NCBI RefSeq assembly: GCF_900107735.1
Contig: NZ_FNQV01000001.1
Coordinates: 1-64,000, forward strand
Source of the DNA: Bowdeniella nasicola
GTDB lineage: Bacteria > Actinomycetota > Actinomycetes > Actinomycetales > Actinomycetaceae
Direction: 5' to 3'
Length of the DNA stretch: 64,000 bases
The notes beneath the pieces are model-generated. The model saw only the letters and a program-made list of their open reading frames with translations. It had not been told where the DNA came from and made no database searches. The position numbers and the translations under genes are program-made. Every line of letters begins with the position of its first letter. The stretch's first letter is position 1. Shown here piece by piece: positions 15,884 through 18,523 of the stretch.

Positions 15884-16250
15884 GTGCTCCTGGGAGACGT
15901 CCAGCTGAACCGTCCGACGCTCGAAGACGTGCCGAAGGTCCACGCAATCTACAGCGACCCGCGAACCTGGCGGCACTACCCGCGGGCGGGGCATCGCGAG
16001 CACGGTTGCCGCCTATGCGGTTCAGCGGGCGCTCGCGGCCGATCCCGATCGCCCAGTCGCCTCGCTCCTTGAGTACAATATCGGCTCCGCAAGAGTCGCC
16101 GAACGCGCGGGCCTGAAGGTGCGCTACCGCGGGCCCGACATCGGCAACCCCAACGGTCCAGCGGTCCGCCTCATCTATGCCGATCGCGGGCTGAGCCCAG
16201 GCCAGCTGGGAGCCGTCCTGGCTAATGGCGATCTTTCGCTGCTAAGGTAA
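15884..16250 (+). pseudogene. GNAT acetyltransferase remnant with internal deletion and frameshift
   Basis: The first 35 codons (VQLNRPTLEDVPKVHAIY and DPRTWRHYPR) are the N-terminus of a GCN5-type acetyltransferase. Then the frame changes near 15985. The other frame encodes the C-terminal part, with YAVQRALAADPDRPVASLL, ARVAERAGLKVRYRGPDIG and PAVRLIYADRG, ending at TAA 16248-16250. The middle of the domain, roughly 50-100 residues including the acetyl-CoA loop, is missing. The gene is therefore a deletion-derived pseudogene. It follows the importer ATPase by 11 nt and may have belonged to the same operon. Confidence 0.8.
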
Positions 16251-16254
16251 GGCC

Positions 16255-16314
16255 ATGCGCTTAGCCCAGGTCACGACGACGCCGGAAGCATCCGGCGTCT
16301 CGTTGCTGTCCTAG
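16255..16314 (+). CDS. Putative threonine leader peptide (19 residues)
   Basis: ATG 16255 follows a purine-rich AAGGTAAGG and opens a 19-codon frame, MRLAQVTTTPEASGVSLLS. Three consecutive threonine codons lie at 16273-16281. The peptide ends in TAG just before the region of alternative hairpins, and the gene downstream encodes a threonyl-tRNA synthetase homologue. Three Thr codons exactly before the first hairpin strand are what a ribosome-mediated attenuator needs. Confidence 0.6.
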   Translation: MRLAQVTTTPEASGVSLLS

Positions 16315-16352
16315 CACGCACCCAACCAGGCCCCGGAGCGATCCGGGGCTTT
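16278..16352 (+). promoter_or_regulatory. Candidate transcription attenuator upstream of the ThrRS-like gene
   Basis: There are two hairpins: 1:2 = GACGCCGGA (16278-16286) with TCCGGCGTC (16291-16299), and 3:4 = GCCCCGGA (16330-16337) with TCCGGGGC (16342-16349), followed by TTT. Strand 2 (TCCGG) can pair with strand 3 (CCGGA) instead. Strand 1 begins inside the run of Thr codons, so a ribosome stalled there would cover strand 1 and favour 2:3 over the terminator-like 3:4. Weak points are the short T-tract and the 5-bp antiterminator core. Confidence 0.55.
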
Positions 16353-16401
16353 GCTGTAACTGAGCTACGGATCGACTCCTCACTACCTCAAGGACGATCC
16401 C

Positions 16402-17634
16402 ATGTCAGAAAAGCTCAATTACCGCGACCTCAATCTCGACCTCGATATTTATGCGACTCACCCGCTCGCCGGTAGCGGGTTGCCGCTCTGGCTTCCCGCC
16501 GGCGCTGCTATTCGCGAGGAACTTCAGCGTCTTGCCAAGGAGGTCGCCCACGCCGACGGCTGTCTCGATGTCTTTACCCCGGTCCTTGGCAAGCGCTCGC
16601 TGTACGAACAATCTGGACATCTCGCGAAATTCGCCGACGATATGTTTGCGCCCATGCCCCTTGGCGAGGACGAGGTCATTTTGCGTCCCGCAAACTGTCC
16701 CCACCACGCGCTGGTCTATGCCTCCCGCCAGCACTCATACCGAGACTTGCCGATTCGCTTGAACGAGCTTGCTCCCATGTTCCGTGCCGAACGCTCCGGT
16801 GTCGTCTCCGGCCTCAGCCGGGTCCGGCAGATCAACCTCGACGACACCCACGTCTTTTGCCGCCCCGACCAGGTCGAAGACGAAGTGCGGCGCGCGCTCG
16901 CGGCCGCCATTCGCGCCCAAGAGATCCTCAGCCTGCCGATCGACTATGTCCGAATCTCGTTGCGTGACGATGGTGATGGTTGGCTCGGATCTCGCGAACA
17001 GTGGGAGATGAGCCAAGATGCGCTATGCGCCGCGGCCGCCGACATCCTCGAGGGCAGTGACGTGCCGTATCTCGAGGTCGCTGGCGAGGCTGCGTTCTAC
17101 GGCCCGAAGCTGGATCTGCAAGTGCGAGACGGCCGCGGCCACGAGGAGACCATCGCGACGGTCCAGCTGGATTTCAACCAGCCCGAACGCTTCGACCTGA
17201 CCTATCAGGGAGCCGACGGTAGCGCGCAGCGAGTCGTCATGATTCACCGAGGCACCGTGGGAGCGATGGAACGCGTCGTCGCCGCGCTCCTAGAGCGCTA
17301 CCAAGGTCGGCTGCCGCTCTGGCTCGCCCCCATCCAGGTCAAAGTGCTGCCGGTAGGTGAGGCTCACGACGCACGAGCCCGAGAGGTCGTCGACTCACTA
17401 CGGGCCGTGGGCCTGCGAGTCGAAGTCAAGCACGAGGGCAGCCTCGGCAAGCGTATCCGCGAAGCCTACCGACGCCGGGCCGCACTCATCGCTGTGGTGG
17501 GGGATAAGGAGATAGCGAGCGGAGGGGTTCACATCACCGATCCGAACGACGGATCTAAGCACGAGGTGAGCCTCGACGAGCTGATGCAGCGCGCGGTTGC
17601 GGCGCATCGTGATCGGATCGCCGTGCAGTGGTGA
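16402..17634 (+). CDS. Threonyl-tRNA synthetase homologue lacking TGS and editing domains
   Basis: A 410-residue class II synthetase made only of the catalytic core and the anticodon-binding domain; full ThrRS is about 640-680 residues. The three zinc/threonine ligands are present: Cys99 in RPANCPHH, His150 in DDTHVFC and His282 in VMIHRGTVGAMER. Motif 2 is near FRAERSGV (residues 127-134). The C-terminal domain starts around PLWLAPIQVKVLPVG. ATG 16402 follows AAGGA. Without the N-terminal editing domain it cannot clear Ser-tRNA(Thr). It may be a second, starvation-induced or inhibitor-resistant ThrRS, or an enzyme charging something other than tRNA. A main thrS is expected elsewhere in the genome. 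Confidence 0.85.
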   Translation: MSEKLNYRDLNLDLDIYATHPLAGSGLPLWLPAGAAIREELQRLAKEVAHADGCLDVFTPVLGKRSLYEQSGHLAKFADDMFAPMPLGEDEVILRPANCPHHALVYASRQHSYRDLPIRLNELAPMFRAERSGVVSGLSRVRQINLDDTHVFCRPDQVEDEVRRALAAAIRAQEILSLPIDYVRISLRDDGDGWLGSREQWEMSQDALCAAAADILEGSDVPYLEVAGEAAFYGPKLDLQVRDGRGHEETIATVQLDFNQPERFDLTYQGADGSAQRVVMIHRGTVGAMERVVAALLERYQGRLPLWLAPIQVKVLPVGEAHDARAREVVDSLRAVGLRVEVKHEGSLGKRIREAYRRRAALIAVVGDKEIASGGVHITDPNDGSKHEVSLDELMQRAVAAHRDRIAVQW

Positions 17635-17695
17635 ACTCGCCCGAGAACTTCGCCTTCGATAGCGTGACAAGCCAGAACCAAGAACGGAGGACGTG

Positions 17696-18124
17696 ATGAG
17701 GCTATGGTCGCTGCATCCCAGCCTGCTCGACCGCCAGGGTTTGCTTGCCCTCTGGCGCGAGGGGCTGCTCGCCCAAAAAGTCCTCGCCGGCCAGACGCGT
17801 GGCTACCGCAACCATCCGCAGCTCGAACGGTTTCGCGACTGTCCCGAACCACTCAACGCGATCGCGACGTACCTGCATTTCGTGGCCGATGAGGCCGATC
17901 GGCGGGGCTACCACTTCGCGCGCGAACGGCTCCACCTGCCCGCCAACGAAATCCGCTTGACGGTAACCGACGGCCAACTCGCTTACGAGTGGCAGCACCT
18001 GTTAGCCAAGCTCACTGCTCGCAGCCCCGAGCTCTGGCAGCGTGTGTCAGCTTTGGAGCCTCGACCGCACGACATGTTTGACATCGTTGCCGGCCCGATC
18101 GCCTCCTGGGAGCGCCCAGCTTAG
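17696..18124 (+). CDS. Pyrimidine-dimer DNA glycosylase family protein (Pyr_excise)
   Basis: A 142-residue protein resembling the T4 endonuclease V (Pyr_excise) family as found in bacteria. The N-terminus MRLWSLHPSLLDRQGLLALW matches the family, with LLAQKVLAGQTRGYRNHPQL following. If active, it would remove the glycosidic bond at UV-induced pyrimidine dimers and nick the DNA. ATG 17696 is preferred over the GTG just upstream because GGAGG lies 6 nt before it. It follows the synthetase gene by 61 nt and may share its transcript. Confidence 0.75.
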   Translation: MRLWSLHPSLLDRQGLLALWREGLLAQKVLAGQTRGYRNHPQLERFRDCPEPLNAIATYLHFVADEADRRGYHFARERLHLPANEIRLTVTDGQLAYEWQHLLAKLTARSPELWQRVSALEPRPHDMFDIVAGPIASWERPA

Positions 18125-18133
18125 GCTGTGCCT

Positions 18134-18523
18134 ATGCCCACCAGTGATACCCGTCCCTGCCCCTGCGGAGGCGAACGCTACGCCGAGTGCTGTGAACCCC
18201 TGCACGATGGTGCCCGCGCCGCCGAGACCGCCGAAGAGCTCATGCGCTCGCGTTACAGCGCCTACGCCAGGCGCGACCCCAACTACGTTTATCGCACCTG
18301 GCATCCGCGCACCCGGCCCGCCACGATTGACGAGGACGGCCCCACGTTCACGGGCCTTGAGATCCTCTCGACGAGCGATGGGGGAGCCGACGATGAGGAG
18401 GGCCTCGTGGAGTTCCGCGCGCACTTCACCGACCGCGGCCTACCCGGTGAGCTCCACGAGCTCTCGCACTTCGTTCGCCGGGGGCGCAACTGGGTGTATC
18501 TGGATGCCCATCCCATAAGGTAA
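18134..18523 (+). CDS. YchJ family SEC-C motif protein
   Basis: A 129-residue protein with the N-terminal zinc-type motif CPCGGERYAECC, then ELMRSRYSAYARRD and the C-terminal FVRRGRNWVYLDA. This is the layout of the UPF0225/YchJ family, which has an NTF2-like fold behind a SEC-C motif. Its function is not established. ATG 18134 is chosen because a TAGGCT hexamer (18122-18127) lies exactly 6 nt upstream, the pattern of a leaderless transcript, and there is no ribosome site. It ends 4 nt before the next gene. Confidence 0.82.
   Translation: MPTSDTRPCPCGGERYAECCEPLHDGARAAETAEELMRSRYSAYARRDPNYVYRTWHPRTRPATIDEDGPTFTGLEILSTSDGGADDEEGLVEFRAHFTDRGLPGELHELSHFVRRGRNWVYLDAHPIR

Follow-up and report, generated by a model that had tools for sequence, protein, structure and literature searches.

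A leader peptide rich in ACG threonine codons and a putative attenuator precede a second threonyl-tRNA synthetase gene in actinobacteria

A second threonyl-tRNA synthetase gene and its leader region

The window analyzed here is a 64,000-nucleotide stretch of Bowdeniella nasicola (contig NZ_FNQV01000001.1, positions 1 to 64,000 of the forward strand). It contains a gene for a second threonyl-tRNA synthetase (ThrRS), referred to as ThrRS2, preceded by a short leader open reading frame (ORF) and by six RNA strands that can pair in alternative ways. The features lie in the following order, with the analyses that support them in brackets.

16243..16248, plus strand: -10 promoter box TAAGGT, 6 nt 5' of the leader ATG
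16255..16314, plus strand: leader ORF of 19 codons, MRLAQVTTTPEASGVSLLS, with the ATG at 16255 and the stop at 16312-16314; probably leaderless
16273..16281, plus strand: putative regulatory Thr codons ACG ACG ACG (read directly)
16278..16286, plus strand: strand 1 (folding, alignment)
16291..16299, plus strand: strand 2, the partner of strand 1 or, as antiterminator, of strand 3 (folding, alignment, covariation)
16328..16337, plus strand: strand 3, the 5' arm of the predicted terminator hairpin (folding, alignment, covariation)
16335..16344, plus strand: terminator apex GGAGCGATCC, complementary to strand 5 (permutation test)
16342..16351, plus strand: strand 4, the 3' arm of the predicted terminator hairpin, followed by a short T-tract (folding, alignment)
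16368..16379, plus strand: strand 5, CGGATCGACTCC, an anti-Shine-Dalgarno strand (permutation test, folding for Shine-Dalgarno accessibility)
16390..16400, plus strand: strand 6, the ThrRS2 Shine-Dalgarno (SD) sequence and CGATCC, partner of strand 5 and similar to the terminator apex (the same two tests)
16402..17634, plus strand: ThrRS2, 410 residues, a catalytic core and an anticodon domain without TGS or editing domains (Pfam, NCBIfam, alignment)

ThrRS2 passes the NCBIfam cut-off for thrS, and its Pfam matches are confined to the class II core and the anticodon-binding domain. Residues C99, H150, and H282, which we take to be the expected zinc ligands of a ThrRS, are invariant in a 10-row alignment. 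The preliminary description of this DNA, made from the letters alone, had proposed a ThrRS core that keeps its zinc ligands, lacks an editing domain, and is the second ThrRS of its genome. Both parts hold: only two domains are matched, and the genome also encodes a full-length ThrRS that is 38% identical to ThrRS2 and has an additional N-terminal part. A tree of 60 proteins, which took 46 of the 114 ThrRS2 proteins, places all 46 in one group with a support of 100/100, separate from the housekeeping group. One genome (G441) carries three ThrRS genes, among them a divergent full-length copy that shares 50% identity with the housekeeping query.

Two Pfam-assigned genes lie 3' of ThrRS2, encoding a Pyr_excise family DNA glycosylase (17693-18124) and a YchJ-like protein (18128-18523); we saw no link between either and ThrRS2. 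On the other side, the interval between a siderophore ABC transporter and the leader (15884-16250) appears, by eye, to hold a broken GNAT-type acetyltransferase gene; a 62-aa ORF in this interval has no match in Pfam. A GNAT-like ORF, also recognized by eye, is found 5' of the leader at loci L005 and L012.

Conservation and distribution of the leader

ThrRS2 is sporadic near its home, with only 2 of 99 near genomes (its own included) carrying it at E up to 1e-100. From a wider GTDB scan, the best 80 of 407 loci were taken, and 60 of these (L006-L065) encode proteins with at least 45% identity; they are actinobacterial, some with the taxon left open. In 57 of these 60 best-listed loci, a short ORF upstream encodes TTT or a near-run; in L012, L022, and L029, the corresponding position reads TT and then P. 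In a sample of 394 genomes of the class, 61 (own included) have a ThrRS2 of at least 45% identity; three further genomes gave only 38-39% matches with long frames, which were taken as housekeeping copies. In the joint set, the leader is conserved in 119 of 121 orthologous loci, which excludes chance; at the other two loci (L108 and L145), the contigs end 57 and 106 nt before the match. Four near-copies were removed, leaving 115 distinct loci, and L101 gave way to L146, which covers more of the same gene. L020 was left out of the start-codon tests (114 loci), three more fell to limits on the SD or spacer (111), and five were dropped from the folding of strand 5 in RNA that ends before the SD (109).

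The preliminary description had reported a 19-codon leader with three consecutive Thr codons, and direct reading returns the same coordinates. Among the distinct loci, the leader has three Thr codons in 112 of 115 and two in the other 3, and the codon after the Thr run is CCG in all 115. A TANNNT motif precedes the in-frame leader start (ATG or GTG) by 6-8 nt in all of the 115 distinct loci, versus ~1% of 5440 other ATGs of the same loci at the same spacing. Because this -10 box is so placed in every locus, the leader is probably leaderless, and transcription in the window probably begins at the A of the leader ATG or close by. This leaderless start had escaped the preliminary description.

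An RNA covariance model was built from 40 rows, with L053, L055, L064, and L087 left out when choosing them. Scanned against the 394 genomes, it gave 61 matches below E 1e-5, of which 13 are rows used to build it. ThrRS2 follows 58 of the 61, and a full-length sole ThrRS follows two (G330 and G461); the last, in G323, lies at a contig edge. The 58 correspond to 57 known ThrRS2 genes and one, in G182, that the protein search had missed. Four of the 61 ThrRS2 genomes have no model match; two of these have a divergent leader of the L055 type, and two are cut by contig edges. Nine weaker matches (2e-5 to 1e-3) look like chance by eye. We searched 63 leader genomes for a full-length ThrRS; all 63 have one, and 60 also have ThrRS2. 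At the leader loci of G330 and G461 (L188 and L189), the leader precedes a full-length housekeeping-type ThrRS, and no ThrRS2 match was found in either genome. These two enzymes adjoin each other inside the housekeeping group of the tree, so the gain of the leader may have been a single event. The idea that housekeeping thrS genes have the same leader was set aside, with a motif match in one of 30 loci that is loose and does not represent a TTTP leader.

No conserved gene neighborhood was found, the largest shared neighbor family being present in 6 of 59 loci, all Promicromonospora. Since neighboring genes are hardly shared, the leader seems to move together with its gene as a single cassette. 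ThrRS2 is also found on plasmids: of 62 plasmid records with a ThrRS match, six were examined, and all six ThrRS2 copies have the leader (L294-L299). The hosts are Streptomyces, Streptantibioticus, and Kitasatospora, and one copy is on a Mycobacterium intracellulare plasmid.

Carriage of leader and gene on plasmids would suit a role in resistance, in which ThrRS2 withstands an inhibitor of ThrRS and is switched on through the leader once the housekeeping enzyme is poisoned. The scarcity of shared neighboring genes speaks against this role, and so does the protein itself. Two positions of the window protein, located by the motifs FYGPK and TVQLDF, presumably correspond to E. coli Gly463 and Leu489; both, the two that were judged, look unchanged. 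These positions are tied to resistance (PMC11252418, PMC4389257), and a second ThrRS copy, ObaO, protects in just this manner against obafluorin (PMC11252418). We regard resistance as a rather unlikely role for ThrRS2, and one that would be compatible with the explanation preferred below.

Four strands with the layout of an attenuator

Folding of the leader RNA (16251-16360) produced two hairpins with a z-score of -4.21 relative to 200 shuffled sequences, none of which was as stable. The first (16278-16299) has a 9-bp stem without mismatch and a loop AGCA. The second (16328-16351) has 10 bp, including one G-T pair, a loop GCGA, and a TTT at 16350-16352. Both hairpins had been anticipated in the preliminary description, which drew the second too narrowly, at 16330-16349. 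Its alternative pairing between strands 2 and 3 was also correct, TCCGG (16291-16295) being complementary to CCGGA (16333-16337). The 5-bp core of this antiterminator, listed there as a weak point, is exact, but the antiterminator is slightly longer than 5 bp because flanking GC extends the pairing past one bulged A.

We aligned 40 varied loci (alignment A2) and counted paired cells in comparison with slid versions of each helix. Helices 1:2 and 3:4 are paired in 93.4% of cells (slid versions at most 55%), and the antiterminator 2:3 in 96.0% (slid versions at most 70%). Strand 2 covaries with strand 3: column 24 (strand 2) and column 91 (strand 3) form U-A in 21 of 40 rows, C-G in 17, and another combination in two, where rows are sequences and not independent events. 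Column 24 is unpaired with strand 1 in 18 of the 40 rows. In the terminator stem 3:4, two-sided changes occur at 7 of 12 pairs. Helix 1:2 is mostly invariant in these rows and shows little covariation, a point against the attenuator reading. Compensatory changes are thus present in the element. When partners were permuted among loci, none of 20000 permutations gave 2:3 duplexes as good in 114 loci; in 21 divergent loci there was only a trend (1077 of 20000). For this test, the terminators of L055, L114, L137, and L138 were placed by hand. A control pairing between strand 2 and an intergenic stretch gave no excess in 114 loci and a trend in the 21 divergent loci (608 of 20000).

The third Thr codon is located within strand 1, and strand 2 of the window begins 10 nt past the last base of this codon. 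Given the footprint of a ribosome, such a placement suits a stalled ribosome that would cover strand 1 but not strand 2. Rfam covariance models at the gathering score gave no matches in the window or in 10 orthologous loci, and a T-box or another catalogued Rfam element was rejected there on this result. The preliminary reading of the locus as a case of leader-peptide attenuation is supported by the Thr runs of the orthologous leaders and by the joint changes in the strands.

The 3:4 hairpin scores as strong in 100 of 114 loci; of 845 stretches that follow other ORFs, 83 score as high. The 8 nt that follow it contain a mean of 2.95 T, versus 1.2 after similar hairpins near other ORF ends, and the T runs measure 0-3 in 99 of 114 loci. 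The short T-tract, conceded as a weakness from the start, remains a real weak point, even though T is enriched. We regard termination at 3:4 as likely. The pentamer GTCGT, complementary to the ACGAC of the Thr codons, occurs just 3' of the terminator hairpin in 19% of the strong-hairpin loci versus 1% of control hairpins; the window has none (16352-16365).

A predicted third hairpin covers the ThrRS2 Shine-Dalgarno sequence

Strands 5 and 6 are predicted to form a third hairpin over the ThrRS2 SD, which the preliminary description had missed. Mean predicted SD accessibility is 0.253 at 111 ThrRS2 starts, folded with the RNA cut at the terminator, versus 0.470 at 139 other starts of the same loci that were required to have an SD of at least 5 bases (p = 1.2e-14). 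In the window, the apex GGAGCGATCC is complementary to GGATCGACTCC of strand 5. The complementarity between apex and strand 5, and that between strands 5 and 6, are both locus-specific: in 114 loci, and again in 21 divergent ones, none of 20000 permutations did as well for either. The same test gave no excess for apex:SD or strand 2:SD. The usual form combines the apex GCGAGTG, the strand 5 sequence CACTCGC, and the SD strand GCGAGGAG. In two Streptomyces plasmid loci (L296 and L297), all three have changed together, to GCAAGTG, CACTTGC, and GCAAGGAG. L298 shares their apex and strand 5, but its SD strand is GCAGGGAG.

A possible alternative, if on balance a doubtful one, is that the element works mainly as a translational attenuator. 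In this model, 3:4 would be an ineffective terminator, and a relay of three hairpins (1:2, 3:4, and 5:6 versus 2:3, 4:5, and a free SD) would hide or expose the ThrRS2 SD. The low accessibility of the SD, the locus-specific pairing of strand 5 with both the apex and strand 6, and the weak T-tracts all point in this direction. In RNA that ends before the SD, strand 5 also pairs more with strand 4 and its loop when strand 3 is absent (0.441) than when it is present (0.256; 109 loci, p = 7.6e-6). Folding without strand 3 argues the opposite, in that mean SD accessibility is not raised (0.265 to 0.258 in 111 loci, p = 0.56), with three loci up and four down by more than 0.2. In the window, it does rise, from 0.05 to 0.33. 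With strand 4 swapped in from other loci, occupancy of strand 5 is almost as high as with the native one (0.409 versus 0.441), and in the window, strand 5 occupancy runs in the opposite direction, at 0.43 without strand 3 versus 0.83 with it. A simple relay, in which 2:3 formation would let strand 4 free the SD through strand 5, is not supported by equilibrium folding or, as to the specificity of strand 4, by the swap control.

Partition of ACG between the leader and the ThrRS2 gene

The Thr codons of the leaders are ACG in 323 of 342 cases. Counted from the last Thr codon to the first, ACG takes up 115 of 115, 113 of 115, and 95 of 112 positions. The third codon is part of the stem; the second lies beyond the counted 7-bp stem and is still ACG in those 113 loci. 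The ThrRS2 genes make the reverse choice, with ACG at 21 of 1033 Thr codons and entirely lacking from 99 of 114 genes. The window gene has eight Thr codons, one of them ACG, and the six plasmid genes have none among 95. Housekeeping thrS genes of the same genomes use ACG at 220 of 840 Thr codons, and none of the 29 genes is free of it; their frames were checked by ThrRS motifs, and L225 gave no checked frame. ACG accounts for 1000 of 2891 Thr codons in neighboring ORFs (the longest ORFs, some perhaps not genes) and for 24.9% of 869 in 25 EF-Tu genes. ThrRS2 is also poor in Thr (2.2%, versus 5.3% in neighbors and 4.5% in housekeeping ThrRS). This partition between ACG and ACC had not been noticed in the preliminary description.

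Could ACG avoidance simply reflect the usual codon bias of a gene that is well expressed or was transferred, unrelated to the leader? Among the controls, the Thr codon used most often is ACC, as such a bias would have it. The sole ThrRS genes of G330 and G461 use ACC at 46 of 46 Thr codons, with 34% and 46% ACG in surrounding ORFs; since housekeeping thrS in their family is itself low in ACG (51 of 340, with two of 12 genes at 1/29), this 0/46 is only suggestive. However, ThrRS2 shows no reduction in G-ending codons for Ala, Val, Pro, Gly, Ser, Leu, and Arg, so the avoidance of ACG is not a general bias. The ACG content of EF-Tu and the contrast between 0 of 29 ACG-free housekeeping genes and 99 of 114 ThrRS2 genes also oppose codon bias, which we judge very improbable as an explanation.

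Thr tRNAs with the anticodons CGU, UGU, and GGU are all present in the window genome, in which 30 of 47 tRNA loci were read. By analogy with selective charging (PMC1183508), the natural reading is that the leader would use the codon whose tRNA empties first, and that the gene would remain readable without this codon.

A model for regulation by charged tRNA-Thr

We consider it very likely that the element is a ribosome-mediated attenuator for charged tRNA-Thr, most sensitive to the isoacceptors that read ACG. At the level of sequence, this explanation is backed by the conserved leader, the -10 box, the strands, and the codon partition; we infer ribosome stalling, termination, and the direction of the response. 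Transcription would begin at the leader AUG, with a ribosome trailing the polymerase. With ACG decoded promptly, the ribosome would reach the leader stop and cover strand 2, and 3:4 would form. Most transcripts would then end or stay silent, and in any read-through RNA, helix 5:6 would keep the SD paired. With ACG-reading tRNA-Thr uncharged, the ribosome would stall on the Thr run and cover strand 1, allowing 2:3 to form, which would block 3:4 and lead to synthesis of the second ThrRS. Uncharged tRNA-Thr would in this way act as the inducer. Its low Thr content and its avoidance of ACG should keep the ThrRS2 gene translatable under the very shortage that induces it.

A further rival holds that the leader senses a general slowing of translation by antibiotics, like the uORF of wblC, and that ThrRS2 belongs to the WblC/WhiB7 antibiotic response. 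In S. coelicolor, alaS2, trpS, and thrS2 are all listed as WblC-activated (PMC7157823), and this thrS2 is presumably a ThrRS2 behind the leader. A GAAAWY box resembling that of WhiB7/WblC is located 24-38 nt 5' of the -10 box in 22 of 115 loci (L019, L060, L090, L099, and 18 others), versus 1.1% of 10228 background 60-mers. With only these 22 loci, the box was rejected as a general feature, and the window has none. Moreover, a general sensor needs no Thr run, yet the run is kept in all 115 loci, mostly as ACG, the codon that the gene avoids. A general sensor is thus an improbable account of the element. The S. coelicolor listing (PMC7157823) and the 22 boxes suggest that in some lineages, the promoter may answer antibiotics and the leader tRNA-Thr.

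The attenuator sensing charged tRNA-Thr may be part of a double lock, a more elaborate scheme that we put forward tentatively and hold to be somewhat unlikely in its full form. The leader would hear only the ACG-reading tRNA-Thr pool, and the gene, nearly ACG-free, would be translated while that pool is empty. The six-strand RNA would set both termination and SD exposure, with strand 5 choosing between the terminator apex and the SD. If so, the inducing insult could be the selective loss of ACG-reading tRNA-Thr instead of general threonine starvation. 

The codon partition itself offers a clean natural case of selective-charging logic: a single synonymous codon labels the proposed sensor and has been all but removed from the gene needed in the shortage. 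Second synthetase genes are often read as resistance genes or spare copies; in many families of one phylum, the present analysis suggests, they can be governed by a switch that responds to tRNA charging. It also contributes an RNA element for which Rfam gave no match.

Comparison with known attenuators

The trp and thr operons of E. coli are the classical leader-peptide attenuators. The element described here shares with them a run of cognate codons overlapping strand 1, alternative hairpins, a likely terminator, and a cognate gene; it differs in that its leader is probably leaderless and a predicted third hairpin covers the SD. We regard it as a real variant of leader-peptide attenuation. The avoidance of starvation-sensitive codons in target genes is the counterpart of the selective-charging prediction. 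That theory concerns isoacceptors and predicts that leaders use starvation-sensitive codons (PMC1183508). It was made for E. coli, where the thr leader favors ACC (PMC1183508); here, the choice is the reverse, ACG, in a natural case that extends over many actinobacterial families, with a near-complete split and a synthetase gene downstream.

Among actinobacteria, leader attenuators have been described for trp, trpS, and leuS in an analysis that included synthetase operons and, in its account of threonine operons, saw no conserved RNA structure (PMC1262725). The closest precedent is thrL, a leaderless leader before thrS (SLIV_19410) of S. lividans TK24 that was called an attenuator (PMC8079986); alaL/alaS and trpL2/trpS of the same species are likewise leaders before synthetase genes, for other amino acids. 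The thrL peptide, MKRVRPFLETTPGFVPAR, contains TTP, has the VPAR end of the named Streptomyces leaders of our set, and precedes a ThrRS gene; judged from this leader, SLIV_19410 is probably a ThrRS2. The report on thrL differs in that it concerns a single species and two Thr codons and calls termination 'not clear', and its passages on thrL contain neither a four-strand model nor a survey and mention no covariation, SD hairpin, or codon partition (PMC8079986). The leader of one Streptomyces species was thus already known. The wider element, the SD hairpin, and the ACG split were not found described in open-licence papers and appear to be new.
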